The position numbers and the translations under genes were made by a program. A stretch of 64,000 bases of DNA from Phytophthora sp. 'mugwort' (Eukaryota > Oomycota > Peronosporomycetes > Peronosporales > Peronosporaceae), in contig JAUCEF010000017.1 of NCBI GenBank assembly GCA_033558025.1, positions 744,001-808,000 on the forward strand. The letters are read 5' to 3'. This document shows positions 1,701-34,875 of the stretch, piece after piece. Each line of letters opens with the position of its first letter. Positions within the stretch are counted from its first letter, which is position 1. The notes below the pieces were generated by a model. It was not told the origin of the DNA, ran no database searches, and saw only the letters and a program-made list of their open reading frames with translations.

Positions 1701-2294
1701 AATTAGAGATGGCTTCACTCCCAAAGTGTCCAGCATCCAGATACTCTAATAGCTCCAGCTTGTGTGCATAGTAGACAGCAATTCGAGTGTTCCTTTCGTG
1801 CGAGGTCTGCGTGTTTTCAGCGCAGCACAACCTAAAATTAGCTCCTATGAGATGGTAATTTAGCATTATCCATCTGACTAAAATAGGGCGCTGTGATTGG
1901 TCGGAATAAAGATTCGCTTAGGACAAAACTTTGCTTAGGACAGGGGCGATGCGGTACAGTACATGTAGCCATCCATCCATGCCAGCCTAAAGTTGTAAGA
2001 TCACTGCTTGCCCGACAGGAAACGGCTCCCAAATAACTGCTCGACATCAACACAGCACGCAACACAGCTCATCGTCACAATTCAGAAGAAGACTTAGCCC
2101 TCGATGCAGTGGTTTACACTTTACTGTAGATCGCAAAGCCGAACAGAAAGTTTTCAGACGGGATGTAATGCTACTATTTGTTCAGCGCTTTTGTACTCAT
2201 TTTCTTTATAAATCGTTATATGTGTTGTTGGTTAGGAAGAAAAAATAAAATGCTGCTAAGACGAACTGAGGGTAAACTACGTTATTCAGCGTCC
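1701..2294. other. intergenic, nothing recognised
   Basis: This lies between the citrate synthase remnant and the 3' end of the first elongase. Only short unsupported ORFs are present. An A/T-rich stretch near 2195-2255 could hold 3' processing signals for the minus-strand elongase. Confidence 0.4.
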
Positions 2295-3204: not shown

Positions 3205-4192
3205 GGTTCCTTCTTCTTTTTCTTCTTGCTCCCTTGTGAGACTGGAGGGGACGACGACGGACGTGCGAGCGGGCAAAAGCGCGAATGAAGAGGCAGCCGT
3301 CCATGGCCAGCAGCTCCGCCAGCGTGAGGTCAGCGCCGCTCGTTAAGGGCTTGGGCGTAGCAGGGGCCGCTTTTGCGTGTCAATCGAGTTTCTGCTCGAA
3401 GCACCATTTGCGGTGGTTCGGGGTACGGATCCAGGTGTTACTTTCGCCCCAATAGTGGAGGCAAGATAATCGGTTTGCGGAGGGGAGCGCTGATGAGTTT
3501 CGACGCCGAATAATGATGTCATGTATCATCTCGGGGCCGCGCGCGCCGCTGTCATCGCCATCTTGAAGCCACCCGAAAAGCTGTTTGCGGTTCGCGATGA
3601 CGCAGAGGGCGACCAGAGCCAACCAAACGGTGCACGGAGTATTGAATCCATCTATCTTGCCGCTTGAAGGCGCCAGCCGTTCTGATGCACTTCAGCCACG
3701 GACTGCGGTACATGTACACTGCTTAACTTAAGCTTGGAGGAGGCCGCAGAGCAGCAGAGCAACACCACTCAAGGCCTGACTGTGTTAAACAGTTCTGGTG
3801 GTGACGCGCCGCGCGTGGCGATGCAGCACTGCAAGTTCGGGGTAACTGTGTGTAGTTCGCGTACGTTGCGGCCATGTACCAACCGGGATGCCTGGAGCAT
3901 TTTATTGGTACGACAGCAAACTTGCATGACCAATTCAAAAGCTACGTCAGTGTTCCGGCGCGGGATAAGGTTGTAACTTTTTGTCCATATTATCGTGTCT
4001 GTCGTACTACACTTATGGGGTATTATCAGTCTAGGATGCTGGAATCATCGCAGCACGGTAGCTGGCTACAGCTTGAACAGAAGAGTCGATCCATACCAAT
4101 AAACAATAATATGAACATCATTTGCATTCAGCATACAGTGCAGTTGAGCACACTCGTCTAACGGTTTGTAGCTTACTCACTCTGCAAACGGC
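3205..4192. other. intergenic between the elongase copies
   Basis: This holds the promoter of elongase copy 1 and the 3' flank of copy 2. Short plus-strand ORFs at 3734-4161 show no family features. The only structure I can support is the pair of blocks shared with the other copy's promoter, listed separately. Confidence 0.5.
3512..3605 (-). promoter_or_regulatory. conserved promoter blocks upstream of elongase copy 1
   Basis: AATGATGTCAT (3512-3522) and TCGCGATGACGCAG (3592-3605) recur exactly upstream of elongase copy 2 (5385-5395 and 5438-5451) in the same order, within more diverged sequence. The first resembles an ATF/CRE-type bZIP site. They lie about 310-400 bp before the start codon. 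Shared function is inferred from conservation between paralogues. Confidence 0.45.
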
Positions 4193-5133
4193 TTATAGGT
4201 TCTTCTTGGCCGAGGAGACCTTCTTCGGTGCGAGGACGTACGAGCGCACGTAAAAGTTGACAAACAACCAGAACAGCGACTGCACGTACGCCAAATAGAT
4301 GAGCGGGATCTTCGGGGGCATGCCTGGGCATTGGCGAGAGTACATGAGATAGCCCTGAACATTCATCGTCACGAACTGGACGAGCTGGATCAGCGTCAGG
4401 TAGCGTTTCCACCAGATATCACGAGTGTGCGCGCTCACAAAGTAGTACGTGTACATGATGGTGTGTACGAAACCATTGAGCACAACGGACGCGTACGAGT
4501 CGCCGTCCTGCGCCACACGGAAGACGATGTAGTACATGAGTAACACCGAGAGATGGTGGTAGACATGCAGGAACGAGAGCTGACGCCATTTCTTGCCCAC
4601 AACGATGAAGAAGGTGTCGCACAGGTCAAGCATTTTGGATAGGTAGAAGAGGTAGAGCACGTTGCCCATGACGGGGGTATCCGCTTTGAAGGCGTTGCAA
4701 GGGGCCGGCGAATAGTCGTTGCGGTAGGCTTGGATAGCCGTCTCCATGAACATATAAGAGCATGCGATGACTTGGATGGGGTTGTAGATGAACTGGATTG
4801 GACTCGTCTTGATGGCCGGAATGCCCAGCTTCATGAGAGCCTAGTACCGTCAGAATAGCAGCAAAAGCATGCAGCAAACAGCGTGTTAGAGGTAAGAGTC
4901 CTTGGCATGACCATCAGAATGGACCAACGGAATGGAGAAGTGCAACTCACCGATCCAAACACGACAAAGAGCACGTAGCCGACGCAAATGGCGAAGACGC
5001 TAGCGAAATTAGCCAGCGGATAATCGGCCATGGGATGAACCTTCCAGCCGCCCTCAGGGTCGACCCAGTCGAGCACCTCGAGCTCGGTGGCGTTCGCCCA
5101 ATCGTAGTAATTCTCCAGCAGCTCCGACGCCAT
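4193..5133 (-). CDS. ELO-family polyunsaturated fatty acid elongase, copy 2
   Basis: Tandem paralogue of copy 1 with the same ER elongation role. Exons are 4951-5133 and 4193-4840, with a 110 bp GTGAGT..TAG intron at the same codon position as in copy 1 (FVVFGS joined to ALMKLG), giving 276 aa. Start MASELLENYYDWANATELEV. It keeps KMLDLCDT, the HVYHH histidine box, GFVHTIMYTYY and the NPIQVIACSYM segment. The C-terminus KKNL fits a KKXX ER signal. Most differences from copy 1 are conservative and the tail is shorter. Identical intron position and shared promoter blocks show a duplication that included regulatory DNA. Divergence in the cytoplasmic N-terminus and tail could reflect different substrate or expression; this is inference. 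Confidence 0.95.
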
Positions 5134-5384
5134 TTATTCCTGCTTCTGCTCGCGTTGGCAAAACTGCAAATGAGTTCTACACTTAGAAAATGTGGAGCAA
5201 TTCGCCCCTGGCCGCACATTGAGTGCGAATCGGCATTCTGAAGAGCGTGAACACGACCAACCGCGGCATTAAAGCAAGCCTTTGCTTTGTATGGGCCCGC
5301 AGTCCACCCGTCAAGGCCAATCGTGGATGATCGAGGGTATCCGCCCGATCACTCGAGCGTTTGCATACTAACGCCGAGTGCTTT

Positions 5385-5451
5385 AATGATGTCATAAATA
5401 AAGGACGAGGCGAGAGAACTGGCGTCATCGTAGCCCCTCGCGATGACGCAG
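5385..5451 (-). promoter_or_regulatory. conserved promoter blocks upstream of elongase copy 2
   Basis: AATGATGTCAT at 5385-5395 and TCGCGATGACGCAG at 5438-5451 are exact matches to blocks upstream of copy 1, about 250-320 bp before this start codon. The spacing between the blocks differs (53 bp here, 80 bp in copy 1), so the blocks persist while the sequence between them has changed. Confidence 0.45.
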
Positions 5452-16241: not shown

Positions 16242-18182
16242 TCAGCAGTCGCGCATCGTACTAGTACAAGATTGAGGATGCCGCTCGAAGGACGGCGAGC
16301 GAGCGCGTTTCCGCGGTGAAAAGCCCTCAGCGACGTCCGTGGATCTGTAGACGCTGCGGGAACGATTGAGACGTGGATCACGCGACGAGATCCGGCCTTC
16401 CACCATTTGGAACACACTATGCGAGCGCTTGCGGTAGGTGCTGGCTGCGGTTGAGTTCGAGGACTCTTGTTGCTGATTGCGAAACGCATAGGATGGTGGC
16501 TGCCCGGGTGGCGGTGGCGGCACAAAGTCCTGTTGCTGCGGGTGGTAGTTGCGTCCGACGCTTTCGGGGACTTCGTAGTCGCAGTGGCTTCGCGGCGCCG
16601 TTGTCGTTGCCGTCGAAGTCCGGTACGTCGCACGCTCCCGGTTCACCTCGTCAATATACGCTTCGAGGCAGTGCACCATGTACTGATTCCTGTCGATCGT
16701 CACGGCGCACGAGAACTTCTTGTGGAAATCGTGAGTCGTGCCGTTCTCAATGTCAGCTTTCAAGTACCAGCAGCGCTTCATGTGGTGCCCCACTTTCAGG
16801 CAGTAAAAGCATGATACGGGACCGGTACTGTCGAAGCGATCGTAATTGTCATACTTCTTCTCATATCTTCGCGACTTGCGCGGGGACTTGTCGTAGCGGT
16901 TGTAGGACGCGTACTTGTCATATCCCCTCTTGGAGTCGTACTTGTCGGATAAGTAATAGTTGCTCTTCTCGTGTCTCTCATCAGATTTCAGACTCTTCGA
17001 TGATCGAGTAGTGTCAGCTGTATCTGATCGCTCAGTCGGAGACGTCTTGATGCTGGTGCGTGACGGAGTGCTAGTCGGAGTCTTGTGTTTTGCTAAACAA
17101 GTCGAGATTTTCCCACTTGTCAAGTCGATAGTATTGTCTGCTCCACTAGTTACGTCAATACGTGGCAGAGCTACTTTGCTGGGACTCACTGCCTTACCGG
17201 TCGTCTTCGGCGCCTCCGCAGCGCGCTGTTCTGTTGGCTTCTCAGCTTGTTTTTCGACGAGATTCTTCACTGGTTTGGTCGTTTGCTGCTCCGACAGCTT
17301 GGTAGCTGACTTATCTACTGACTTCACTTGGGCTACAGGTTTTACTGCACCAGGTTTGTCTGATAATTTGTCTGGCAATTGGGCAGGTTGCAAGTCGATC
17401 GCGTTGTTGGCGGAGCTGCTTGTTGATTTCCACAAGGTTAAATTTGGATCAGTTGCTGCCTCTGCCTGAGCTTGCATTCGTTCACGTGCAATAATCACTT
17501 TCTCCACTAGCTCTCCGTACGGCACAAAGGGTCTAATACCTCTCCACGAAGCCACTATCGGTCTCCACACACTAGGAAGAGTTTGGGTCAGTGAAACAGA
17601 GCGGAACGCGTCCGTCAGCTCGACCCCCGTCACTAGCGCGTATTGCTGCATTAGCATCTCCCACCGTGTAATAAACTCCCTCACAGGTTCTCCCTTCTTG
17701 TCACCAAGGCGGATGTGATGCAGCACCCGATGCATCTCGAACACGTCGTGAGCTCCCGGATTGCTGCTGTTGCCGTACAGTGCACAGAGCATCTTCCAGC
17801 TTTCGTATATATTCTTGTTCAGAATCGCAGTCTCCACGTCCGGGTGCAGGTAGCGTTGCAAGATGCTCTTGGCCTCAGCGCTCTCCCCTAGGACGTCCCA
17901 CCGACTGAGTCCCCCCTGCTGCGTGGCGGTATACACACTACTGCGAACACACGACACTTCCTCCTTGACACTCGCCCGCTCGTCCTCCATGTGGACCACG
18001 GGCGTGCGGGGTGGCACCTCCTCCCCGTTGTACGTGAACGCCTGGCTGCCGTCGTAGCCGCGCACCATGACGTAACCCAATAGGTGGTAGCGCATGAGCT
18101 CGTTCTCCACGCGCGCGCGCCACACGCGGAAGTCCGTCGTGCCGTCGAACACGCGGACGGTGCTGCCGGTGCTGGTCTCCAT
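16242..18182 (-). CDS. copia-type Gag-like protein with zinc knuckle, no pol
   Basis: An intact 646-codon frame starting METSTGSTVRVFDGTTDF; the frame stays open to 18308, but this Met begins the conserved domain. The N-terminus follows the Ty1/copia Gag pattern (F-DGT-x-F-x-W-x-x-R-V-x-x-x-L). A UBN2-like capsid segment lies at about 105-145 (AKSILQRYLHPDVETAILNK, then YESWKMLCALYG). A basic, Ser/Lys/Thr-rich linker precedes a CCHC zinc knuckle near 457-470 (CFYCLKVGHHMKRC), which binds nucleic acid in Gag proteins. The C-terminal third is proline- and serine-rich. Downstream there is no protease, integrase or RT; the next thing is a host gene promoter. Every other retroelement in the window is broken while this frame is clean, which fits a domesticated gag. 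A recent solo insertion cannot be excluded. Confidence 0.82.
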   Translation of the reverse strand: METSTGSTVRVFDGTTDFRVWRARVENELMRYHLLGYVMVRGYDGSQAFTYNGEEVPPRTPVVHMEDERASVKEEVSCVRSSVYTATQQGGLSRWDVLGESAEAKSILQRYLHPDVETAILNKNIYESWKMLCALYGNSSNPGAHDVFEMHRVLHHIRLGDKKGEPVREFITRWEMLMQQYALVTGVELTDAFRSVSLTQTLPSVWRPIVASWRGIRPFVPYGELVEKVIIARERMQAQAEAATDPNLTLWKSTSSSANNAIDLQPAQLPDKLSDKPGAVKPVAQVKSVDKSATKLSEQQTTKPVKNLVEKQAEKPTEQRAAEAPKTTGKAVSPSKVALPRIDVTSGADNTIDLTSGKISTCLAKHKTPTSTPSRTSIKTSPTERSDTADTTRSSKSLKSDERHEKSNYYLSDKYDSKRGYDKYASYNRYDKSPRKSRRYEKKYDNYDRFDSTGPVSCFYCLKVGHHMKRCWYLKADIENGTTHDFHKKFSCAVTIDRNQYMVHCLEAYIDEVNRERATYRTSTATTTAPRSHCDYEVPESVGRNYHPQQQDFVPPPPPGQPPSYAFRNQQQESSNSTAASTYRKRSHSVFQMVEGRISSRDPRLNRSRSVYRSTDVAEGFSPRKRARSPSFERHPQSCTSTMRDC

Positions 18183-19200
18183 CGTCAGCTCTTGCTGCTC
18201 GCTACTCGCCGACCTTCTTGCTTGAACAGTTCTTTGTGTAGGCGGGATCTTCCTGCACGCCGTCGTTACAGGATGTCCAAACTGGCGAAAGAGCTCGATT
18301 ATGTGCAACGAGACGAAAAAATTGGGTAAAATGTCGAAAAGCGTTTAGAAGGCGTGGTTCGTGAATGATGTGTCAAGTCTTTTCGACCAATAGACAACCA
18401 GAAGTGACTGCCGCCGTCAATTAGCATGCACCCTATGTCAAGATTTACAGAAAAGCGCACCCTATGTTAACTGATTGTCAAGGCATGGCTTCAGCGATGG
18501 GAAGAAATTGTTAGCGCAATTTGGACCATGAAACAATTCATGAGCCAATCAGTTTATTGTCCAATTGTCTGTTCCAATTTTTGCATCGCTCTGATTGGTT
18601 CAACACTTTACATGAATTTACCAGATCTTGACCCTCGAGTTTGATTTGCATTGGCTGTCAAGAAGATGAAGGCGTGCTTCACGGACAAGAAACAAGAGGA
18701 CGGCGTGTCCTCGCCGGCGAAACCATTGCACTTGTAGCTGACTCGTCGCCTATGTCGCTATCTACGCTGAAGCACAACGTCGCAGCACGCAAAGATGAGC
18801 GTGCGATTGCACGCCAGTGCCGTAGGCCTGCTTCGATACATGTATTACCGGCGGAATATGACCGGATATCGTGACTGGATTGCGGCGTTGCAACGGCGCC
18901 TGCTAGGAAGTGCCGGAGGAGTCTAGGTCGCTAATAGACAACTCTTGTACATCAATAGATACCAATAGAGCAGCTGTCCGGCTGGTGAGCGGACACTTAC
19001 TCAATACTAAGGGCAGCGCAGAGCTGCAACTGGCATGGCGACTGCGCTACTCAGCACTTGCGGACGCAGACGCCTACGGGCGTCTCCGATTGCTTCAGGA
19101 GTGGACCCGACCGGAGACTGACAGTATTTAACTCCCACTTCAGCAGCAAGGTGACAAAAAATCTGTATCGCAGAATGCGCGAGGATTCACGAACAACACA
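18183..19200. other. intergenic region before the LINE remnant
   Basis: No supported gene. The phrase GCACCCTATGT occurs twice near 18427-18473, separated by about 30 bp. Plus-frame ORFs at 18641-19131 may be the 5' part of the neighbouring LINE, but I see no diagnostic motif. Confidence 0.35.
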
Positions 19201-21759: not shown

Positions 21760-23060
21760 GGCCCGTGGACACGGTGACCCCTCGCGCTCAAAACGAACAA
21801 GCACCAAAGCACGGAAGGCCTGGTGACTCCCCCTGTGTTCAATCTACGAAAGTACACCAAGACGCATTGAGCCTGGTAAGCCCCCTCGCGTTCCCGTCAC
21901 ACCACCAACGTACAGAGGAGTTGGGATCCTCTGCTTCCCTCCCCAGAGTGTACACAGCAATCCAGATGCATATTCGCCTTGGCGTGAAGACCCAGATCGT
22001 TCGAACAAGACCTCATAGAGGATCCACTGTAACGGATATGGAACACCCGCCACATGCAAGGCCGAAGGAAAAGACCGAAGTGAAAGCTTCAAGGAAGACA
22101 GGCAGATCGTCTCGATTTGCTAGCTAAGGCTTCTATAGGACAGTAAACAAACTCAAATAGAAGACCAACTTAACCACCAATGTATGCTTTAACAGCGCCT
22201 CTCGCGGCTCGACCAGCTTGGTCATCTCTACCTGATGAGAAGGTGAAGGACATGACAAGCGCGCGACGACGCGTCTTCGGTTCTACGTAACAAGGTGCTG
22301 GGCGACACCCCAAACACGCATGCATAACGTACTGTTCTCCATGGAGACTACATAAAGCACACAATGAGTCCCAAAACCTGGTGGTGGTAGCGCAGCTTTG
22401 GGGCGGTCTTTTGACGATGGACGCGGGATGCAATCAAATCGCGCAGAATTTTTAATTTCTGCGCCAGATCTGATGAAAGGCCTCTTACTTCACACGAGGC
22501 GACGTTAGACTGTTCAACGATCGTATGTTACGGGCACATGTCACCCCCAACCTACCGCGTTAGACTTGTAACGTTTAAAAAGTTGGTGTCTGGCTTACTT
22601 GTACATGGTCATCCATGCGAACTCGCATGACGTGTCCAGGCACGTAGCAACGCCTGCTCGGTCAGCATTCTGATGCACGTGGCGGCGAGCATCGCACTCT
22701 GGTTTTTTTGGCTTCAGGTACATCTCACACAGGATGACCACTTCGTCGTCATCCTCATCTTCGCTCCTCTTGCACGCGCTCGACCTCGAAGCTAAGTGGG
22801 CGTGAACATTAGGGGGATCTAGAATTATTCCTGCACATTCCGACACTTAAGTGTCCGGGTAAAGAGCACTGATTGACACCAATTATGACAATAGAGAGTT
22901 TTCGCAGTTTGTATTTCCCATTCCCACAAGAACGCAATGAGGACGTGAGGGTATGGTGAGGAACTCGGCAAACTAATCATTCGCAATCCAGCGTTTCCAT
23001 ATCAATTCCCCACCCTAAAGTGATGTGGTTGAGTGGTCACTGTGCTACTTCGATTTCGTG
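21760..23060. other. transposon-flanking region, nothing assigned
   Basis: About 1.3 kb of low-information sequence. A minus-strand 82-codon ORF at 22,595-22,846 has an acidic run (KRSEDEDDDEVVILCEMYL) and ends FAWMTMYK. Another minus ORF at 22,170-22,433 is Cys/Arg-rich. Neither matches a family I know and both may be transposon debris. Part of the right end should be the 5' region of the Harbinger element whose transposase begins at 23,061. Confidence 0.35.
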
Positions 23061-23192
23061 ATGGACATTTTGTTGCAGGCTGCTGTGAGCAGTTCCGTGG
23101 GCTTAGTACCGGCTCTTCTGCTGCTCGACGCGCGAGACGAGCTCCGTGAAACCCCAGAACGCCCCATCATCCCTGCAATTCGATTCGTATTA
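23061..23192 (+). pseudogene. PIF/Harbinger transposase, N-terminal piece (split by the piggyBac insertion)
   Basis: The frame starts at ATG 23,061 (MDILLQAAVSSSVGLVPALL) and reads LLDARDELRETPERPIIPAI then RFVL up to the TTAA at 23,190-23,193. This resembles the N-terminus of Harbinger transposases. The same frame resumes at the TTAG of 32,624 (TTA GGC GAC..: LGDKADGNCVKDFRFDKAG), so the two pieces are one gene interrupted by 9.4 kb. The continuity was checked codon by codon at the junction. Confidence 0.75.
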
Positions 23193-23193
23193 A
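23190..23193. other. left TTAA target site of the piggyBac-type element
   Basis: TTAA directly precedes CCCTTTCGCG, the layout expected of piggyBac-family insertions. The partner at the right border is TTAG (32,624-32,627), one base changed. Confidence 0.7.
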
Positions 23194-23207
23194 CCCTTTC
23201 GCGCCTC

Positions 23208-23281
23208 AAGGAGGCATTTTGCGTCCTTTAACAGCTTTCACAAAAGATGATGCAAAAGCACCCGTCACAAGGAGGCATTTT
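23208..23281. repeat. left subterminal repeats of the piggyBac-type element
   Basis: AAGGAGGCATTTT occurs at 23,208 and 23,269, 61 bp apart. The first copy extends into an imperfect palindrome ending GCGTCCTTTAAC. Subterminal repeats of this kind commonly serve as transposase binding sites; that role is inferred. Confidence 0.6.
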
Positions 23282-23613
23282 CATTCATTTTAACGTTAGA
23301 CTCGGTTTCATTCTACCGTTTTTTGTTTCATCCAATCATATCGAAATGTAATGTAAGTTTATGACGATTGTGGGGGGGGGGGGTAATTTTCGAAAGAAAC
23401 CGTCTCATGGAATAGTTCAATGACAGGTTTGCACTGAAAAATTGTCGTCAATGACACGAAACGCAATGTCAGAGGCGGTTGTCCGTGCACCAGCCAGGCC
23501 AATCGGCGAGAGTAAAACTGAATATATTCACGCAGTTCGTGGGGTACAACGCCCCACCCAAAGCACATAAAAGTATATGCTATATACACTGATTCACTTA
23601 TCCATCGAGGGCG

Positions 23614-24640
23614 ATGCAAATAACTTTCTCCGACAGAGATAACAAACAAATTGCGCACGAGTACGAGGCGCAAGGCATGAAGATCAAATGGAGGGATGTA
23701 GTGCGCAAGATTCGCACGAAATGCTCGCCGGGGAAGCTGCACGCGCGGCTTCAGTGCCTGAGGCGTACGATTGGAAGCGTGCTTGCGCGCTTCCCACCGT
23801 ATTTCTTCTCGCGCTCGCCCGATCCCAAGGGCCGCACTGCCCCCCGTTCTCTCCCTACTGCCCCACGAGCCCCCCCGAGCTCCTCGAGCTCTCCCTACAG
23901 CCCCACAAGCTCCCCGAGGTCCCCATACTGATCCTCGAATTTATTCTACTTCTCCGCGAGCTCCTCCTATGGTTCCCGAGCTCCCTGCAACGAGCTACAA
24001 GTACTGCGTCTGAACGACGTTGAAACGGCATTAGCAGCTATTTGCGGTGGTGTGTCGAATGCAAATGTGCGTCAGAGAGTTGGTAGAACTGAAGAGAATG
24101 CAGGGAGGGGGGCTCTTGCCTTCAGCGCTTGCGACGATCATCGCCGCGATTGGGTACGTGGAGGCACAGGATGTCTTCCTAGACATTGGTGCCGGATTAG
24201 GAAATACTGCGGCTCGGTTCGCACTCCAGACCAACGCAGGTCGGTGTTTGGGCATCGAAATGAGGGGGACCTCTGTAAAAGAAGTACAGCGCGCCTACGA
24301 TCCAGTGTATCACGCATGCTGCTGTTGGGTAAGGTGACGTTGATACATGGAGACGTCTTGGACACCCTGTTGTCTTCGTGCGCGCCATTTCGAGACGCCA
24401 CAATCATCTACCTAAATTACTTTTTATTTGATGAAAAGGCCAAGCTAGTGGTGCGGCAGGAGCTCTGTCTAATGCCTGGGCTCGCGTGATCGTGTCTACT
24501 TCTCAATACTGGCTCCGTCATTAATCTTCATGTCAAAGTTGTTTTTGCCAGCGATGTCAGGGTGCGCCGGCGGTAAATGACTATGGTAGTTGGAAGACAA
24601 CACCCATCCCCATATATGTCTACAAAAGGAGCGAATAATC
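23614..24640 (+). pseudogene. SANT/Myb-like plus DOT1-like methyltransferase gene, frameshifted
   Basis: The first ORF (23,614-23,931) has a SANT/Myb-like domain (FSDRDNKQIAHEYEAQGMKI, KWRDVVRKIRTKCSPGKLHA), then a Pro/Ser-rich tract with PRAPPSSSSSPYS. A methyltransferase domain follows in another frame from 24,047: LLPSALATIIAAIGYVEAQD then VFLDIGAGLGNTAARFALQT, the SAM-binding DxGxGxGN loop, and GIEMR. The frame shifts near 24,310 to KVTLIHGDVLDTLL and TIIYLNYFLFDEKAKLVVRQ. The family C-terminus SWKTTPIPIYVYKRSE ends at a stop near 24,638. The order matches DOT1-like H3K79 methyltransferase domains with an N-terminal DNA-binding module. At least two frame changes make it non-functional as read. 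It sits inside the piggyBac-type element and may be cargo. Confidence 0.7.
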
Positions 24641-24710
24641 ACTGTTAATACATCTAGGTTCATCTTTCAACTCGACAGGACATCTAACTGTATAGCGCCG
24701 CCGTCATTAA

Positions 24711-25747
24711 GAGCATCTCTACCGGCGAGGACGTATAGCTATATAGCTACCTACCCGACGAAAATGTTAACTACCGTTGTTTTACCGGGCATCTCTATAG
24801 CTATAATTTTAGCTACCGGGGGGGGGGGGGTCAGTGGCTATGGAGGGCCTCCATAGAGACGCAAAGCTATAATATCTTTGCTCTTTCACAGGAAAAAGCA
24901 ATGCCCCGAGGCAAGGCTTGGTCGGATACAGAAGATAGAGCCTGCCGAACCGAAATCTGCGTGCAAAATCCAGAGATCCCTGACGCAATGGCTTCTAATA
25001 CGACCGTGGGCTTCTTTTCACGACCTTTAAATTGACCAGCAAAACCCGGGGACACAGTACCCACTCCCACTTAATGCAATCAATCGACCCTAACATTCCC
25101 GGAACCCCCCCTGCTTGTTGTTAATGCTTATATGAGCCGAAATATCTTGTTCAGTAGGGAATCGCAAGTAACTAGGCCCAAAGAGTTCAACAATTGCCCC
25201 ACAGAATTTGTGCAGTAACTCAAAAGCGGTGGATTCACCAATAGAACAAACTCGTCCATTTCATCTCCAGCCGTGGCATAAGCCAGCATACGATAGCCCG
25301 CAGTAATTTTCAACAAGCTGCTGATTCCTTCCTTACCAACGGCATTACTTGTTTGACAGAAGTACGGGTAGTTTGCATCATAACTCTTAAGAAGAGGGGC
25401 TTCGACATACGATACCGACGGGCGAAGGTTTTGTCGTCATGGGGTTGAGACTCAGCGAAGTACCGTCGAATAAGCTGCGCGTTGGCCGATGCGAAGTCTC
25501 TCTCAAAATTGATTGCTTTACCAGGCTCCGAGCCACCATGCTTTCGTTTTTTCTTGGCGCGAGGAGCGATAAGCAAAGAGGCTATGTGAGCCTTCTCTTC
25601 ATCGTCAAGCAGTTCGTGAAGAAGACGACTTCGCCACATAGCGACAATTCGGTGAGTGGCGGCACTGGATGTCTATAACTATATAAATTCCAGCCAATCA
25701 GCACGCGAGTTGTTTATAGCTATGGCGACTGGCCGGTGGAGATGCTC
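24711..25747 (-). mobile_element. PIF/Harbinger element with TIRs and TAA duplication
   Basis: The left end GAGCATCTCTACCGGC (24,711-24,726) and the right end, reverse complement GAGCATCTCCACCGGC (25,732-25,747), match at 15 of 16 bases. TAA flanks both sides (24,708-24,710; 25,748-25,750), the three-base target duplication of PIF/Harbinger. Inside, on the minus strand, is a decayed transposase. The element is 1,037 bp and carries a 13 bp G run (24,818-24,830). Confidence 0.88.
24867..25639 (-). pseudogene. ALP1-like Harbinger transposase, frameshifted
   Basis: Fragments in three frames: MWRSRLLHELLDDEEKAHIA, then RRYRMSKPLFLRVMMQTTRT (25,310-25,639); ITAGYRMLAYATAGDEMDEF (25,128-25,316); and AGQFKGREKKPTVVLEAIAS (24,867-25,070). 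These follow the order of plant and oomycete ALP1-like nucleases, with the helical N-terminal region, the TAxRxLAYG segment and the WxGQFxGxxxxxTVxLEAIA block. The last catalytic part is missing. It is inactive and lies inside the element defined by the TIRs at 24,711 and 25,747. Confidence 0.75.
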
Positions 25748-25904
25748 TAAGCATGCGCGCGGCGACACCATTTTGGTCTGACTTCCGGCTGTGAACACGT
25801 GAACCATTCTATAGTGAAGACAAGTCAAACGCATCATTTTATTTTCAGTGGTGTCAATATAGCCTAAACCCTAGTAAAGATAAGTCAAGTGCATTATTTG
25901 TTAT

Positions 25905-27950
25905 TTACATTAGCGGCGTGACGGCCCGAGTTGAGCAGTCATAGAATGATAGATCGAACTGCGATTCTGGGAGCCGATTCACTACCCGCACCACTGTCGA
26001 CAGGAGCGCTTTCTGTTCCAACTGAATTGGGTTGCTGCAAAATGCTCTCAGTTTCGTCAGAGCTGAAGACCTGCAGATTTTGCCCTTAGCGGTGAAGAGA
26101 TTCCTTGAGAGGTAGAATTTATGGAACTTGTCCCAACAAGCCCATGGCTTCTGGGGGCATGTGTAGGCTGATTCCACGTGACCGTGAACTACACGACATA
26201 GGCAGACTGTGTGTATAAGGAAGTAATCGGTGACTTCATTAGGATATCGACATTCGTATCGACACACGATACACTGCCGTTTTTTTCTGCTCCGCGAACA
26301 TTTTTTCGACGCCATTGACTCACATGTTTTCTTTGGACTTCGCTGGTTGGTGTACTGTACAATGTACTCGACGGGGTGACGTTTGTAGCAAACACTTCGT
26401 CCTCCGTAGTACAGCTTCGAAACGCTATCTGACCATCACTTGGGGCATATTTCCATTTACCAGAAAGTAGCTCAGATAGTAGTTCAGTAACGAAGGTCTG
26501 TGATCGCGATCGCTTGCTGTAGGTACAGCTAGCAGGCGTACCAAATAAGTATTAGCGCGTGCGATGTCAGCGAGACCTAAAATACCAACTACTTGTGCCA
26601 TCGTTTGTACGAATGCCTGTCAGCGAGAGAGAAACGTCCACGAATTTGGTCTAACCGATCTACGCCTGCCTGTTCTGGTTGATTGTAAGATTCAAGTCGG
26701 TGCTGGGAACTGCAGTGATTCTGCCCCTACACGCCTCGTTATGGATGTAGTTGTAGAAGCATCGGCATTGGTCACGATTGTGACTAAATTTCCGTCACAC
26801 CAGGAAGTTGCAAGGATGTCATGATCCGAAGACACTGCTTACCGGTGGTCTCCCCGACTTGTTTCGTTCATGTCTAGAATTGTATGTCTAGGAAAGTGTT
26901 TACTCTTTCCGCGGACTGTTCCGCATCCATACAGGCCCTTCAACCGAAGGTCAAGTAGTATTTGGGCACTTGTGTAGTAGTTGTCCATGTTTACTTCACG
27001 TCGAGAATGAAAGTATGGTCTCACCACTTCAATGACGTGCTTCCGTACTTGCTTGACGTCGTCAAGCTCTTCATGAAGCGCTGAGCCTCATCAGGATCCA
27101 CCACATCTTCAAGGCGGTCTGCGATATCACTATTGTTGCAATGCAGGCGGTAATTGAGCGCAATCCAGCTGGTAGAACAGCAAACAACGACCATCCGAAT
27201 GTGATACTTGCCGCCGGGCTTTCGAGGATTGTACACAATGAAGTGGCGGCATGGCGGGACCGGCACGCAATACTAGCCTAGTCTAACGCGAGATTACGGC
27301 CTGCTTCTACGTAGCCCCCCCCCCCTCCCGCCGTGTGCTTGAGTAAATCTAACAGTGGGCGAATTCTTGCTGCGGGGTCGCATTCCAATGTCTCGTGCTC
27401 AGCGCGAAAACTCAGACATTGGCGCAACATCTTGAATCTGTTGATGCTCATCACACTATCAAAACTTGTAGACATACCACCGAAAATAGCGTCTTCGGTT
27501 TGTGGTCCCCAATAGTTTGTATACTCTCCTCTATCAGTCAGTGTCATGTAAAACATGATACCAAGAAATTTCATGATCTCGTCCATACTGAAAGGCGTCG
27601 AGATCCGAACATTCTTAACCGCCGCGTAGCGATTGGTCTCGATCATCACCTGCTTCCATACGTGAAGTGGTAGATAGTCGAAAAAGCTCGACGAGGCTGA
27701 GTGTGTAAATAGGTGGACGTACTTCGGCCGCAAGCGCGTCAACGTATTTCTGTCGCTTGTGTTCATACAAGTCTTGTGGTGCAAACCTTTCAGCATCGGG
27801 TTCGAATCGCATGCTACGGACTGCTTCCACTTCTGCGAGACTTGTTGGGAGAAACAGAACCGGGTCGTAAAACTCATAGCTTTCACCATCCGAATCAACC
27901 GCCAGTTCGTCCAGGGGATCATCTAAGTCCAGGCCATCGTCCAGTATCCC
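25905..27950 (-). pseudogene. piggyBac-type transposase, decayed but near full length
   Basis: Reading the minus strand from 27,922: RLRPKYVHLFTHSASSSFFD, LHVWKQVMIETNRYAAVKNV, MDEIMKFLGIMFYMTLTDRG and YTNYWGPQTEDAIFGGMSTS (the DDE_Tnp_1_7 N-terminal half). Then VPPCRHFIVYNPRKPGGKYH (27,021-27,266), and VRPYFHSRREVNMDNYYTSA with LKGLYGCGTVRGKSKHFPRH (26,839-27,027), where MDNYYTS is the conserved catalytic-Asp block. ADIARANTYLVRL follows near 26,560, and finally a Cys-rich tail (RQCIVCRYECRYPNEVTDYF, CPQKPWACWDKFHKFYLSRN) typical of piggyBac C-terminal zinc-binding domains. Several frameshifts and stops break it; a C run at 27,315-27,325 is one break. It is the probable source of the surrounding element's termini. 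Confidence 0.85.
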
Positions 27951-28261
27951 ACCCGTTAAGTCTGTGGAGAAGCGTCAACCAAGAATATCAGATCCCTAAG
28001 GAATGCCAGATCGATGAGAAAGGCGGCCCTAGCTGTGAAAAGAAGGTGCGATCGAGCCGGATCGAGATACGAGGTAAAGGCGGGGTGACGTTCGACTTAA
28101 TCTGGGGTGCAAGGGGATGTCTCAATGACGAGGAAGGAAACCAGGGTCGGGCAACCACCCAACACATATCTGTTATTCTGTGATCACCCGACCGATCGAG
28201 GATCGAGTGGATATTCGGAACCCGGATCGAAGGGGATGTAAGAGATCAGGACTGGCGAGCG

Positions 28262-28760
28262 GTGACGGAATCGTTCAGACTGGATCTAACCCCGTCTGAC
28301 CTCGGTCTGACCCGATCGTGCGGATCTGGGGTCCAGGGGTTGGCGGATCGACTGATCCGGCGTCCACAGATCGGCCTAGGCCTCTCCGGCCGAGATCAGG
28401 CAGATCGGATCGATCTTGCAGTCGAGATCGGGCCGGTCGCCACGGGATTTTGCAGATCGGGCCGATCCAGGTTGGAAGATCGGCCCGATCAGGTGTTCAA
28501 GGTTCGGAGATCGGGCTGATCCGGCGTCCACAGGTCGACTTACACCCCGCCGTCCAGGATCGGGCAGATCGGATCGATCTTGCGCTCGAGATCGAGCGGA
28601 TCGGGTTGATCGGTATTCGCCGATCGGCATACAGGTCCGACATCCTCGATCTGTCAATCGACATACATGTTCGGACATACGCGATCTGGCAGATCGATAT
28701 ACGCGTTCGGACATCCGCGATCTGGCAGATCAGGATTCGATCAGCAATCATCCTTGGAGA
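28262..28760. repeat. GATC-rich imperfect repeats
   Basis: Dense GATCGG/CGATC words. GATCCGGCGTCCACAG recurs near 28,355 and 28,516, and CAGATCGGATCGATCTTGC recurs near 28,400 and 28,565, indicating a diverged duplication of about 160 bp. At 28,635-28,740 three copies of a roughly 36 bp unit follow, with the core GGACATnCGCGATCTGGCAG. ORFs through it are Arg/Asp/Ser-rich artefacts of the repeat. Confidence 0.65.
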
Positions 28761-29136
28761 TGTGCAAGCATGAAGATGGTACGTTTTGAGTGGTTGAAGA
28801 AGGGCAAGATCCAGGAGATTCAGGTGGTACGAGATAGGGTTCAGGATGGGAAAATAGGACCAGAAAAGGATAAACAACAATCAGACTCGAATTTACATTG
28901 GACTACTTAGGCGTTTTTAAGTGCCGCTGGAAGGGATCTACATTGGCCCTCCCAAGTATTAACTAACCCAAGGTAGCAGATCAAGCGTCGCGGTGAGAGG
29001 ATCGGATCGGACATTGGCCGACCCTCCCCCACGCTAGCGAACTTCTACTGAAGCGCATACCTCGATCAATCAGCATGCAGTGCTTGGTGAACGATAGTCT
29101 CGACTTTCAATTCGTAAGATCCCGCTAAAGGAAGCG

Positions 29137-29445
29137 GTGAGCAACTCAAAGAAAGGAAAAGAACAACGCCACACGGCAACCTCGGCCTCGGATCAAGTCC
29201 AGGGCCCGATCGAAGGTCGACTACCTCAGATCGGAACCAATGACGGCAGCAGAGCGAATACTTCCACGCTGCTCCACGCCTCCGCGTCCCGCCAGGACGT
29301 TCAAGACTTTACACCGCTGCATCCTTCGGAGTCCCAAGAGAGCAGATCCCGTCCATCGACGGGTACACAAGGTGACCAAGTTCAGCTGATCAGGGATCAT
29401 CGGAGAACCCCCTCCGTTAGTCGGTGTCTAGGGTGCAGTTGGTAA
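29137..29445 (+). CDS. hypothetical ORF, Ser/Thr/Gln-rich
   Basis: About 100 codons, read here from GTG 29,137. The product is polar and low-complexity (SKKGKEQRHTATSASDQVQG, LLHASASRQDVQDFTPLHPS). It resembles the disordered N-terminus of an LTR-element Gag, but there is no downstream protease or RT, so I cannot assign it. It lies within the piggyBac-type element and may be noise. Confidence 0.2.
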   Translation: MSNSKKGKEQRHTATSASDQVQGPIEGRLPQIGTNDGSRANTSTLLHASASRQDVQDFTPLHPSESQESRSRPSTGTQGDQVQLIRDHRRTPSVSRCLGCSW

Positions 29446-29628
29446 GCGTATCGGGTCTTAATCATATTTTGACCGATCCCGCTACACCACAAGTCACTCC
29501 ACGCAGGATTTGCTGGCAACTGTGTCAGCACCTGGTAGTTGTCGATCCCGCTGGATAATAGCTAGACTGACGTTTTCAACAGTGCTTTGAAATTGACTGT
29601 TTAGCCATATAACTTGGAATAATGAAAC

Positions 29629-30720
29629 TTATTTCTTTTCGCACACACGTCCGGCGATGTAAGTAGTGCCCACGCACTTGTAGATTTTCGCTTTCATCCA
29701 AGACTCTTTGGAAGGCGAAAATGCCACCAACTTGTTCAAAACAACTTGTTGAATCAATGGCAGAGGTTTCCGTGCATCACGATCAGCAGCCATGGCAACA
29801 CGTGCATTCTCTCCGTGACTCGAGCCGACACCATCAATGCCATTTGCACTCTCCTCCCCGCCATACATGCCACTTACACCAACACCACCAACGTCAATTG
29901 CATGCTGGCTGACACCAACACTCGTGTCCACATCATCAACCCCGCTTACATCTTGGCCGACGACCCCACTTGTACCACGTCCATGTCCTTGTCCACGATC
30001 AGCGGCCGCATAGACACCGCTCACACTGCGGTTGCCGCGAGTTGCCGCGCCACCGCCACTCGCGGTCCCACCATCCACGCCGCTAGCACCTCGGCCGCCG
30101 GAACCATTTGAGCGACGGTCACGAACGCGTCAACGACCAGAGGTCACAGTGACACTAGTCACACCGCGTTGCCCATGACCACCACCACTAGCCCCGGTAC
30201 TGCCTCTCGCAGCCTCGCCCTCCACGTCAATAGCACCTAGTCCGACAGCGACACGTCTACCCCATCGACTACGGCCAGCAACTACCACGAGACAGTCTAC
30301 ATCGCGACTCCAGCCACGACACCACCATTCGCAGCCACGACAACGCCACTTGCAGCCCCGCCATCCACCCTACTTACACCTTGGTCGACACCAGCACTTC
30401 GTCCTCTTGCAACTCGTCCACGTCCTCGTTCAGTGCCAGCGGCCACAGTGACATCGGCTGCAGCGCGTCTCCAGCCACAACCCCGCCATCCACGTCACTT
30501 GCACCTTGTCGACGGCAACATGCCCGCATCCTCGTCCACAGCCAGCGGCCACAGCGACACTGCCTGTACCGCGATCACCGTGTTCCCCAGCCACGACAAC
30601 GTCATTGGAGTCCACGACATCGACGCCACTCAATACTTGATAGACGGCTCCGCTCGCGTCCCGGCGTCCATGCCATCGACGCTACGTGCATCTTGGACAA
30701 CGACACCACTTGCAGAAGTA
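29629..30720 (-). repeat. imperfect repeat tract coding Gly/Val/Asp-rich sequence, with a short ORF at its 3' end
   Basis: On the plus strand, phrases such as CCAGCGGCCACAG(T/C)GACA recur about every 110 bp between 30,430 and 30,620, and CACGTC/CATCGACGCC words recur throughout. On the minus strand these read as Gly/Val/Asp repeats. The last 149 codons (29,629-30,078) are open: GVVGQDVSGVDDVDTSVGVS, then a non-repetitive tail PLPLIQQVVLNKLVAFSPSK and KIYKCVGTTYIAGRVCEKK. That tail could be real coding sequence of an unknown gene whose upstream part has decayed. Confidence 0.4.
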
Positions 30721-30899
30721 TGATCCTTTGCCAAAACTAGGCAACACAACGATTGTTAGTGTCACGTTCTTCTCGACGAACGAAGCGGCTGCGTTCAAAA
30801 CGTACCATTACTCAGGTAGTATGACAGGACAGCGTCTTCGCCGAGATAGGAAGTCCTTGGCTTCCGTTCCGTTAGCACCACCAGCAGGCGAAATATAGC

Positions 30900-32430
30900 G
30901 ATACCTGATATCGAGGCCGCGACTTGGGGCGGTTTAGAATGTCACCCGGCCGTTCGCAGCTCCTTCCATACAGACTGGAAGCTTAGGTCACTCGCTGACA
31001 CCGATCCATGCTTGGGCGCGTCACGTACTCCCTATCGCCATCTTTCCCGTAGATCCGCCGCTTCCGCGGCTCCGGTGGCTCTAGAACAAGTCACGCGTAT
31101 CGTGGCTGGCATGAAAACGAAAAAAGCGGGAATGAGTGGGAATGGAAACGATCGGCTGGGGTTGCAACGATTTATACAGGTATCAATATTAGATGAAAAC
31201 CTATCACAGAAAAGGTATACGAATTAATTCCGCACGGTACATTAAGCATTGTAACAGATCAGCGCAGCCGCAGTAGCAAATGGTGATTCGAGGCGAGACC
31301 TGATGATGTACCAGTACACGAAGATGCTGAGCGCGGAGGGCGCGGACTCAATGTGTGCGAACTGCACAAGCGAGGTCTTGATGTGGCGGACGTCGCGACT
31401 TTCCATGACGAGCGCGAGAGCCGTAGAGGTGAGATCTTGACACAGAGAGACGCACAGTCAAGGGTGACCGAGTTAGCGACGAGTGGCTAGCGGAGCAGCA
31501 GAACGAGGATCAAGCGCAAATGAGGTCACTTCGGAGTTCGCCAGCAAGGACGCAGAGACGCACGTGATGGTTGACGAATCGAAGTGAAACAAGGACGAGG
31601 ACACGAGCTACAACGAATCAGCGACCGACAACTAGCTGAAGCTTTAGACGGCACGAGGTGTGCTTCGCATCAGCACAGAAGGCACTTCGCGCGGGATCTA
31701 GGGGCAGTTGGCATTGTCGCGGTGTAGACCGGAGTAGTTGTTGAATGAGTACGAGAACGAGCACGAATAAAATAAATAGGGACTAGACTCCCGGCTACTT
31801 AGCGGTGGCCTACAGCGCGTTAAAGTTGCTGACGAACTCGCCGGACTCTGAAAGTCAACCGCGGAGAGCACAAACAGTATACGATCCGTCGACAAGCAGA
31901 CGTTAAGAGCTCGTTACAGTATGATAGGTTATGTCAAATCCAAGACGAAACCAACAAGTATAGTGAAAACAACACAAATGCACCTATCATCACTCGCATA
32001 ATGAAATCCACACAAATGACCCATCTTCACTCGCACACTGAAATCAACATATATACATGGGTACAGAAGAACAAAGACACTCTTTGCGGTTTTCGCCTAT
32101 TACACGCCTGGAACTATAGTCCAAATGCTACAGGTGTGTCATACGAGTCATCGCTTGGTATCGCCCTCTTTAGTTACGCGAGACACCCCTGCACACCCGG
32201 CCCCGTGATGTAGCAGCCCCACCAGCGACGACCGATTTCGCGCCATTATCATTCTATTACATTCCATATCATTAGAATAATGGCGAGAAATCGCGTGCAC
32301 CGTCGTACACCATCTTGCAAGAATCCAGGTGGGATCCCTGATGATGATGAGAATTATACCGAACGTGTGAGATTATTACAGATGAGGAACATATCCACTT
32401 TCATTTTAGCCAATGGGCAAGTTCCTGCAA
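30900..32430. other. piggyBac-internal region without assignable genes
   Basis: About 1.5 kb. Short ORFs occur at 31,012-31,227, 31,698-31,895, 32,001-32,213 and 32,280-32,480, none with a recognisable domain. CACAAATG(C/A)C followed by A/TCATC recurs near 31,975 and 32,013. An 8-9 bp G run lies near 32,522. Confidence 0.35.
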
Positions 32431-32437
32431 ACTGTGT

Positions 32438-32623
32438 AAGAGGAGTTATTTTGCCTCCTTTAATTGACCACTTCCCGTGAAATGATACAGAATTGTTTTG
32501 TTGTGAAGCTGTCGCACAATAGGGGGGGGCATCACACTTTCTAAAGGAAGCATTTTGCCTCCTCTTATTAACCAGTATCTTGACTTTGTATAGTATAGTT
32601 TAGGGAGGATGCTCGCGAAAGGG
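32438..32623. repeat. right terminus and subterminal repeats of the piggyBac-type element
   Basis: AAAGGAAGCATTTTGCCTCC (32,543-32,562) and a diverged copy AAGAGGAGTTATTTTGCCTC (32,438-32,457) mirror the left subterminal motif. CGCGAAAGGG at 32,614-32,623 is the terminal inverted repeat, followed by TTAG. Confidence 0.6.
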
Positions 32624-33610
32624 TTAGGCGACAAGGCTGACGGAAATTGCGTCAAGGATTTCCGGTTCGACAAGGCAGGCATCCTCCAGCTCGCGGAGCT
32701 GTTCGCCCTTCCAGAGTTTGTGATCACGGCACACCGCGACAATCTCCACCGCACCGAGGCTCTTTGCATATTGCTCTATCGGACAAGCTACCCTCGCCGA
32801 AACTACGACGTCCTGGCCAAGTTCGGCCCTTCTGAAGCTGCTATAAGCCGTGCCTGCTTGCATTTGAGTACGTTGAATACTATATGGGTGTATGCTACTT
32901 AAATGTCTGATTGCTTGTGTTATAAATGGATACTTACATGAGGTGTTGGCTGTGGATATGACTTGTTGTTCTTGCAGTCATCTTGCTCTATGAGCGCTTT
33001 CAAGGTCTGGTTTACTTCCAGAACGCGATATGCAAGAAGAATGTACGCCGCTATGTTCGTGCTGTCCGGGATAAAGATGCTCCCATGCACAACGTGTTTG
33101 ATTTCATTGACGGGACCAAGGACGCGATCTGCCGTCCATCGCTTCTGCCAGGTTGCCGCGAAAATCTTCAAAAACAAGTGTACTCGGGGCACAAGAGGGT
33201 GCATTGTCTCAATTATCAAGCGGTGTTTGTTCCGGATGAGCTGGCTATACATTTTGGAGGGCCAACCGAGGGCAAACGTCATGGCATCGCGTTGCTAAGA
33301 GAGCAAGTTGGCGGGATTTTTGGAGGCAAATAAGAGTGACTTGGTGGATACGTGATCTACGGTGATCCTGGGTACGACTTCCAGCGATTCATCGTGTCGG
33401 GTTTGAAGAAGGCTCAACTGACAGAACATGAGCAGGTAATTAGTACCATCATGACCTCAGTCGGAGAAAGCGTGGAATGGATGTTTGGATCCTCAAAATG
33501 CAATGGGCATTCGTCGACTACAAAACAATTTGAAGCTGCGCCAGAGTCCTATAGGAAAGCTTGTGATGGTGTGTATGTTGCTGACGAATTGTCATTGCTG
33601 CTACTATGAA
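32624..33610 (+). pseudogene. PIF/Harbinger transposase, main part (split gene)
   Basis: This continues the frame begun at 23,061-23,192. Exon part one (to 32,867) reads KADGNCVKDFRFDKAGILQL and LHRTEALCILLYRTSYPRRN. A 110 bp intron GTACGT..TTGCAG (32,868-32,977) leads to ILLYERFQGLVYFQNAICKK, VFDFIDGTKDAICRPS (first Asp), VYSGHKRVHCLNYQAVFVPD and HFGGPTEGKRHGIALLREQV. After a frame break near 33,330 come VIYGDPGYDF (second Asp) and VGESVEWMFGSSK (Glu). All three DDE positions are present, so the damage is the piggyBac insertion plus one frameshift or stop. Its partner Myb-like ORF follows on the opposite strand. Confidence 0.82.
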
Positions 33611-33699
33611 GGAAACGAGATCAGCAAGTACTTCCATTTGAAGCCACCACCATTAGCATAGTATCTAGATATGAGTAGCTAACACTACTAGCAACAAGA

Positions 33700-34405
33700 T
33701 AAAAATAACTAGTTGCTCTGCGACTTGTTGAAGTGCTTCCCAAAAATCTCAGCTAGCTGAAGAAACAAGCATCTGTCTTCTTCACGCTCGCGAGCGCGTT
33801 CAGCAGCCTTATGCTCTCGATCATCTCTCTTCTCCTTGCTCTACATCTCTTTCAGCTCCAACAAGAACTCTATCATCTCGTCCTCTTTCTGCTTCGTTTT
33901 TGGGGTCTCCCCTCCATCTTGCAGACTCTCCATTGCAAGCCGGCACGCCGTAAGCGAAGCCACTTCTTCGGCGTCTCGCTTGCGCTTGGCGGCTTCCCTA
34001 TCGGCACTCACAGCCTCAGCGTTACCGTCAATTAGGGCAATAAGCTCGTCGAGCAGGACGTCTTTCTCCGTCTCTTCTTCGTCAATGCTCAACCCAACCA
34101 AAGAGGCAGCATTTTGCTGCCTTTTTGAACACTAATTTGTCGAAGCGTGCTTGACCATTCTTGCCGTTCAGCTTGTCTCGCAAAAAGCTGTCGTCGCTCA
34201 GTAGCTGAGCGGCAAGATCGTCCCATGCAGCCATCGTCTTGCTTCTCTCTTTAAGGAAAGGGCGTTCGCTTAGCACTTGGCGAAGAAGAACTACATTTTC
34301 CTCTGCAGAAAATTGCGCCGCTTGGGCCCCATGCTTTGTGATGACTTTGGTGCTTGGTGCTAATCTCGCTGTGAAAAATGTGTTCCTCAAAGCCACCGAG
34401 TCCAA
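33700..34405 (-). pseudogene. Myb/SANT-like partner ORF of the split Harbinger element
   Basis: The minus frame 34,405-34,082 reads FSAEENVVLLRQVLSERPFL, then MAAWDDLAAQLLSDDSFLRD, a SANT/Myb-like trihelix of the kind encoded by the second ORF of Harbinger elements. The frame breaks near 34,100 and continues as LSIDEEETEKDVLLDELIAL and a coiled coil (REAAKRKRDAEEVASLTACR, LQDGGETPKTKQKEDEMIEF). Convergent orientation to the transposase at 32,624-33,610 is the usual two-gene Harbinger layout. In other Harbingers this protein helps bring the transposase to the element ends. Confidence 0.65.
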
Positions 34406-34875
34406 AACACAAATTCTTCACAGGAGCTGCTGGAGCCCATTTATGTTTGTGCATAGGTGAATTTTGTCGGAGCTGGAGCGGAATCCCTGTTGCGAAATAT
34501 CTCTAATAGGGGAGGGGTCAGAATTAACGAATTCGCCGACATTTCTGCGCTGAAATCGACGCCATATTTTTATCGTCGGCGACCATAAGATTTCGGGGAA
34601 ATAGTTTAGCTCTGGAGGAGTACCACCCCGGCAAATGTCTGCCAATTCTGAATTATTGACCATCTGACAGCGACAGAAGCCAGTCAGGCTTGGTTTTAGC
34701 CTCGCAAAACGCACAGTTGAAGTTTCCTTTTGCTTGAAAGGAAATAGTCTTTTCCTGCACTCACCTCCCGCATTTTCCATACTGGCAGCTTGCAGCAGAA
34801 GTAGTGTTATACGCTTCCAGTGTGTGTGCTGGTACTCGATCTGACCATGCTACTTTGCTGTTTGTACAGATCACG
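34406..34875. other. spacer between Harbinger units
   Basis: No assigned gene. GGGTCAGAATTAACGAATTCGCC near 34,516 resembles the end of the hAT-type element at 50,048 and 53,009, possibly a solo terminus. A minus ORF at 34,418-34,780 shows no known domain. Confidence 0.3.

Follow-up and report, generated by a model that had tools for sequence, protein, structure and literature searches.

Elements of the piggyBac superfamily, of which IFP2 of Trichoplusia ni is the type element, are about 2.5 kb long and transpose at TTAA. DNA transposons commonly carry genes captured from their hosts, and transposons with a chromatin enzyme of their own are, to our knowledge, rare. Here we present an analysis of such a combination in the oomycete Phytophthora sp. 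'mugwort', where the window (the whole 64-kb stretch of contig JAUCEF010000017.1 that was analysed, numbered from its first letter) contains at 23,194-32,623 what is very likely a dead copy of a piggyBac-type DNA transposon with two genes, of which a DOT1-like gene is an integral part, lying inside an older Harbinger-like transposase gene. We are highly confident that this copy represents a piggyBac element family to which the DOT1-like gene integrally belongs. DOT1 enzymes methylate lysine 79 of histone H3 (H3K79); one report associates this mark with active chromatin in animals and fungi, and its dimethylated form, H3K79me2, is tied to repeats and lower expression, with a function called unclear (PMC7784034). 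In Ectocarpus, a brown alga and stramenopile, H3K79me2 is associated with intact transposons, and wide coverage is accompanied by lower transposon expression (PMC12477816). The parts of the element and of the gene around it are the following:

22922-23193, forward strand: outer Harbinger-like transposase gene, part left of the insertion, whose last four bases, 23190-23193, are the TTAA target copy; 73% identity to C13:3659288-3659553(-), the match reaching the last base of the flank and adjoining that of the right part.
23194-23203, forward strand: left terminal inverted repeat CCCTTTCGCG; the identical ten bases follow TTAA in all five other two-ended elements.
23207-23292, no strand assigned: left subterminal imperfect palindromic repeats of the AAGGAGGCATTTTGCGTCCTT type; 82% match to L020 over 23207-24228.
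23647-23811, forward strand: what is left of the DOT1-like gene's N-terminal region; tblastn 37.5% to the N-terminal open reading frame (ORF) of L026, E 1e-5.
24031-24647, forward strand: broken DOT1-like methyltransferase domain in two frames; Pfam DOT1 (PF08123) at 24107-24319 with 26.9 bits; tblastn with the DOT1-like protein P0001, E 3e-20.
25905-26315, reverse strand: cysteine-rich C-terminal part of the piggyBac transposase; CIVCRY...CLCR...CPQKPWACWDKFHKFYL, like the same stretch in L025 and L026; no Pfam match.
26734-27922, reverse strand: DDE domain of the piggyBac transposase, broken over three frames; Pfam DDE_Tnp_1_7 with 53.8 bits on 27278-27922 (cut-off 22.4); tblastn to the L025 and L026 transposases 38-59% identity.
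32437-32567, no strand assigned: right subterminal inverted repeats.
32614-32623, reverse strand: right terminal inverted repeat CGCGAAAGGG; right ends at 8 other places 74-88% identical over 51-97 bases.
32624-34248, forward strand: outer Harbinger-like transposase gene, part right of the insertion, starting with TTAG; 74% to C13 over 32629-34248 and 88% to C5 over 32893-34505.

The piggyBac transposase that the initial annotation had placed inside the element is thus recognised by Pfam, and family copies carry the same domain with 87.9 bits (L026) and 75.2 bits (L025). The DOT1-like (H3K79-type) methyltransferase gene lies between the left end and the transposase, on the strand opposite to it, and the ORFs near the left end read ...NNAGELL..GV..ML.AMGPL...DVFLDVGAGI.NVLAQVALTT.V.RCIG.EVR.... 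The transposase query gave at least 104 matches in the genome (86.3 Mb, 154 contigs), merged to at least 71 places, and the merging of transposase, Pfam DOT1 and element-protein searches gave 54 DOT1-like places. Overall, 37 of these 54 are within 8 kb of a listed transposase place, with 0.73 expected on uniform placement, which is a lenient null since repeats cluster, so that the layout is the better test. By layout, 33 of the 37 linked pairs are convergent and 4 are otherwise (chance 3e-16 with one layout in four), and the gap between the linked places has a median of 2,039 bases, ranging from 1,430 to 5,389. When Pfam DOT1 is considered by itself, 30 places in the whole genome, that of the window included, exceed the cut-off of 23, and 22 of them are within 8 kb of such a transposase, 21 convergent and 1 otherwise placed, the remaining 8 having none. 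In addition, both genes are carried by all five two-ended elements. The family of the inner Harbinger-like element of the window served as a control, and only the window's own of its 11 places is within 8 kb of a piggyBac transposase place.

Selection on both genes was analysed by Nei-Gojobori counts of synonymous (dS) and nonsynonymous (dN) divergence, with the pieces read in their own frames, where frameshifted pieces can inflate dN. In the four pairs joining L023 or L026 with L025 or L028, the DOT1-like gene has dS of 0.83-0.87 and dN of 0.21-0.22 (dN/dS about 0.25), and the transposase has dS of 0.76-0.81 and dN of 0.17-0.18 (dN/dS about 0.22). Among close copies dN/dS runs from about 0.5 to 1.2, dS and dN being 0.09 and 0.09 (L025/L028), 0.12 and 0.14 (L026/L066) and 0.26 and 0.14 (L023/L026) for the DOT1-like gene, and 0.13 and 0.09 (L025/L028) and 0.27 and 0.15 (L023/L026) for the transposase. 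This shows that both genes are under constraint across two subfamilies and relaxed among close copies, which is the pattern expected for a transposon gene, with selection while the lineage moves and decay after landing. Across 8 elements (the window, L022, L062 and the five with two ends), the distances for one gene are correlated with those for the other (r 0.85, p 0.0065 by 20,000 permutations); whenever the window, L022 or L062 is one of the pair, dS is saturated and uninformative on selection. On the whole, linkage, layout and codon counts demonstrate that the DOT1-like gene has moved and diverged with the transposase and has been kept by selection.

As to the identity of this gene, Pfam DOT1 is found on three of the five single-frame ORFs scanned (L026 39.6, L027 34.6 and L025 34.0 bits), and is absent on the tested frame of L023 and on the single-frame window ORF 24052-24489, the Pfam match of the window lying in another frame. 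For protein P0001 the Pfam score is 49.7 bits with DOT1 and 22.8 with the second-ranking family. Among 1,579 candidates, a query with the best family ORF (L062, 247 amino acids) finds five relatives with 47-50% identity, which are records of Phytophthora megakarya, Phytophthora fragariae (two) and Phytophthora rubi and a JGI record that names no organism; one of them is labelled Histone methylation protein by its source, and it is on this one search with its five relatives that the spread of the DOT1-like family beyond this genome rests. A profile of the five against PDB retrieves 12 distinct sequences at E <=0.01, all of which are H3K79-specific methyltransferases (best E 6.6e-9); at E <=1, 20 of 21 are histone-lysine methyltransferases, the remaining one being a ribosomal-protein methyltransferase with E 0.95. 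The likely host DOT1 is located at C13:4610278 (90.5 bits for Pfam DOT1), and P0001 is 29% identical to it over 178 residues, the C-terminal cysteine/histidine stretch included. Identity of the five relatives is 45-69% with four element copies and 29-30% with the likely host DOT1 over at least 115 residues, short stretches of 35-61 residues reaching 40-49% with the latter. No conclusion is drawn from a ten-row tree, which leaves 4 of its 7 inner forks open and places the likely host DOT1 at the tip of a very long branch. The stretch D-x-G-A-x-I-G-N, which we take to be the S-adenosylmethionine site, is well conserved in the DOT1-like rows, and the N-terminal region preceding the DOT1 domain is conserved in the family; a Myb/SANT reading of that region, made by eye, is a guess unsupported in Pfam or PDB. 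Two other DOT1 places, C12:1325277 and C13:3286088, have no piggyBac transposase within 8 kb and are outside the element-protein match list, and they are possibly further host DOT1 genes.

We then describe the ends and the size of the family. A genome search with both ends finds the left end at 3 places and the right end at 9, the window's own counted in each, and the TTAA borders recur. Ten stretches of about 10 kb around recurring ends were examined by a scan allowing up to 3 mismatches, and both ends are delimited in five of them, with lengths, 4-bp flanks included, of 5,753 (L023), 5,555 (L025), 6,006 (L026), 7,748 (L027) and 7,658 bases (L028). TTAA stands on both sides in four of these five, L026 having TTAA/TTTT, and the right 10-bp repeat has one mismatch each in L025 and L028. 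ORFs with DDE_3 and DDE_1 transposase domains are held by L027:8099-8965 and L028:1761-2177 and are presumably nested insertions, so that the basic size of the family is about 5.6-6.0 kb, as in the three elements without evident nested transposase. The family is large because of its second gene, the DOT1-like methyltransferase. The initial annotation took the window copy as several times the usual piggyBac size; relative to its own family 9.4 kb is about 1.6-1.7 times. It had read the element correctly, but offered no cause for the size and overlooked both the DOT1-like gene and the nested inner element. The palindromic subterminal repeats it described do recur in the family in the AAGGGCGCATTTTGTGCCCTT type, but a strict scan of the window's own ends finds none with a stem of at least 6, the repeats being imperfect there. 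Terminal plus subterminal inverted repeats are present in the family, as in the piggyBac superfamily.

The insertion itself can be followed base by base. Both ends stand where they had been proposed, TTAA at 23190-23193 being followed by CCCTTTCGCG and CGCGAAAGGG being followed by TTAG at 32624-32627, and a scan for TTAA plus a 10-mer whose reverse complement precedes TTAA or TTAG 2-14 kb downstream gives one pair in the window and none in 20 shuffles of 1-kb blocks. The target duplication is imperfect, TTAA on the left versus TTAG on the right, and the right-hand TTAG reflects either a change after insertion or a target that was imperfect from the start. The reading frame continues across the join as had been claimed, from ...PIIPAIRFVL on the left to (L)GDKADGNCVKDFRFDKAGILQL... 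on the right, which is unsurprising and no evidence by itself, because dropping one copy of the 4-bp duplication restores any frame. A contiguous Harbinger copy across the join is found at C13 in the same genome: the left flank matches it up to 3659288 and the right flank from 3659286, with one base between, the right-flank match (76% identity to C13:3658532-3659286) starting at the sixth base of the flank, and in a pairwise alignment the joined flanks run straight through the junction. The C13 copy has a 1-base deletion of its own just left of the junction, and is contiguous in DNA there, not one open frame. It is the only contiguous copy across the junction found in the genome; the C5 relative matches, in two pieces, right of 32893 only and has no match to the left part of the outer gene, and C2 matches 161 bases only. 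The C13 sequence is paralogous and does not represent a site of excision. The claimed order, with the piggyBac insertion younger than the Harbinger gene, is confirmed by this uninterrupted copy and by the nesting. These results support that 23,194-32,623 is a piggyBac-type element with a TTAA target within an older Harbinger-like transposase gene, and the window copy is dead because its transposase is spread over three frames (26734-27757) and its DOT1-like gene over two.

Several observations weigh against the picture given above. For the linkage, 17 of the 54 DOT1-like places are without a listed transposase within 8 kb, at least one of these lone places (C16:981526) being closely related to element copies (dS of 0.13 with L025 and L028), 33 of the 71 listed transposase places are without a DOT1-like match within 8 kb, and L024 has an end and a transposase and no DOT1-like match in the 10 kb examined. 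For selection, pairs with L027 have higher dN/dS, 0.31-0.47 for DOT1 and 0.25-0.50 for the transposase. The window's DOT1-like copy is broken and far diverged, with about 30% identity to P0001, and its distance to the other copies exceeds that of the window transposase. For catalysis, the motif defining the DOT1 family is NN-x-x-F, and its NN is NY in 5 of 6 in-frame rows and NN in 1 of 6 (2 of the 8 rows being without in-frame cover), the likely host DOT1 keeping NN where the element rows mostly have NY; the G-x-E motif has D in P0001 and E in the 7 other rows. Because of these two substitutions, catalysis by the DOT1-like protein is no more than putative. The structure model of P0001, made from an alignment of only 5 rows, has a mean predicted local distance difference test score (pLDDT) of 36, and the N-terminal region gives no match, either with a three-row profile against PDB or with Pfam on the L027 N-terminal ORF and the window ORF 23614-23931. 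For the outer gene, the Harbinger piece scores 21.2 bits against Pfam DDE_Tnp_4 (E 0.00025), with a cut-off of 24.8.

Other explanations should be weighed against these data. That the two genes are neighbours by chance, as unrelated repeats clustering in repeat-rich regions, might be suggested by the nested repeats of this region and by the leniency of the uniform null, but the constant arrangement of the two genes in order, orientation and distance (33 of 37 convergent, with a median gap of 2,039 bases), the presence of both genes within one pair of ends and the control, with only the window's own place out of 11, already refute it for the family as a whole, and we regard it as exceedingly improbable. 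It is very improbable, too, that the stretch is not one insertion and instead consists of two unrelated Harbinger fragments joined by rearrangement: the right duplicate is indeed TTAG rather than TTAA, and the C5 relative does not match the left part, yet a single C13 copy contains the matches of both flanks side by side, separated by one base.

Given a family with a second gene, the question is what this gene does for the element. It might be a mere passenger, derived from a host DOT1 that was captured a single time and has since been of no benefit to the element, as the capture of host genes is common in DNA transposons and the likely host DOT1 aligns over 178 residues, C-terminal cysteine/histidine stretch included, at 29%; set against this, its dN/dS of about 0.25 between the two subfamilies is transposase-like and it is present in all five two-ended elements, so cargo without use seems improbable to us. 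A role as an accessory transposition protein, whose N-terminal region would bind the subterminal palindromes and whose fold would act on another substrate or as a scaffold, is better in keeping with the conserved N-terminal region, the palindromes at both ends and the NY in 5 of 6 in-frame rows; the well conserved D-x-G-A-x-I-G-N stretch, presumably the S-adenosylmethionine site, and the solved relatives, H3K79 enzymes in 12 of 12 cases at E <=0.01 and histone-lysine methyltransferases in 20 of 21 at E <=1, speak against it, and we think it rather unlikely. We incline to histone methylation at H3K79 as the activity of the protein, judging from its sequence relatives. For its use to the element we tentatively suggest anti-silencing or self-regulation, because of the H3K79me2 on intact transposons of Ectocarpus and the methyltransferase gene of its transposon Sola1-1_Ec32. 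In this course of events, the TTAA or TTAG that took up the piggyBac element was part of a Harbinger-like transposase gene, and this piggyBac copy was later itself the target of a small Harbinger-like element; the family would transpose by the piggyBac pathway at TTAA, with which its anatomy fits; and the DOT1-like protein would methylate H3K79 on the chromatin of the element or of its target, which would let the element escape or tune silencing. The more general proposal, that an oomycete piggyBac lineage encodes an H3K79-type methyltransferase setting the chromatin of its own copies, and that most DOT1-domain places here are transposon genes rather than host chromatin genes, is plausible and still somewhat doubtful.

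Besides the two genes and the ends, the window copy contains further repeats:

24711-25747, forward strand: internally deleted Harbinger-like element, nested in the piggyBac copy and flanked by TAA at 24708-24710 and 25748-25750; 34-nucleotide inverted repeats, 79%; 88-92% identical copies elsewhere.
28314-28731, no strand assigned: GATCGG-rich imperfect tandem repeats; no match in 11 other stretches compared.

Members of PIF/Harbinger have a 3-bp TWA target duplication and terminal inverted repeats. The nested element, 1.04 kb in length, is sited between the DOT1-like gene and the transposase, and because of the nesting the order is outer Harbinger, piggyBac, inner element. Four copies of about 2.5 kb exist (C6, C18 and twice on C12), the window copy being about 1.5 kb shorter, and the copy C11:1833636-1834590 is without the same stretch as the window copy, which may mean that the shortened version is itself mobile. 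Weaker pieces (69-75%) are found on C4, C6, C8 and C14. The ORF 25310-25639 of the nested element has no Pfam match and no Harbinger transposase was found in it, so that Harbinger-like is a working name. For the whole region 28,000-32,400, comparison with the 11 other stretches gave only 84 matching bases, at 29,524, and a second repeat-rich stretch, 29832-30706, also lies inside the element without a match in them. Elsewhere in the window, at 16242-18308 on the reverse strand, a 688-residue open frame has a weak copia-type gag match, under the cut-off.

The insertion itself is ordinary, and the new part would seem to be the piggyBac family carrying DOT1. We met no piggyBac with a DOT1-like gene in the literature searched, a weak negative, with most subscription papers and preprints beyond reach and long result lists viewed in part; no paper found there joins piggyBac, DOT1 and Phytophthora, and piggyBac, histone methyltransferase and oomycete were met together only in the Ectocarpus paper (PMC12477816). 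A DOT1-like gene is an unusual transposon cargo, and a chromatin enzyme on a transposon would give a direct way to study the selfish manipulation of silencing. A transposon-borne DOT1 relative also bears on the question of who writes H3K79 methylation on transposons and to whose benefit, and it carries a warning for annotation, in that many predicted DOT1-domain genes in such genomes may be transposon genes, distorting the counts of host epigenetic regulators.

Compared with known systems, the family shares with the piggyBac superfamily and its type element IFP2 the TTAA target, the DDE_Tnp_1_7 domain, short terminal and subterminal repeats and the cysteine-rich transposase C-terminus, while differing in its length of 5.6-6.0 kb and in its second, convergent DOT1-like gene. 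With the Dot1/DOT1L H3K79 methyltransferases (PF08123) the element protein shares a Pfam match over the cut-off, and the solved matches at E <=0.01 to the profile of its five relatives are all H3K79 enzymes; unlike them, the gene is transposon-borne and multi-copy, the identity between P0001 and the likely host DOT1 is 29%, and NY replaces NN in 5 of 6 rows. The outer gene resembles PIF/Harbinger in its DDE_Tnp_4-like product, whereas it is fragmentary and scores under the Pfam cut-off, and the nested element shares TAA duplicates and inverted repeats with that superfamily, whereas it is fragmentary with an ORF lacking a Pfam match. Sola1-1_Ec32 of Ectocarpus is also a stramenopile DNA transposon with a methyltransferase gene opposite to the transposase strand, but unlike the piggyBac family here it has a protein combining ParB and a DNA methyltransferase, in a 21.5-kb Sola element (PMC12477816).

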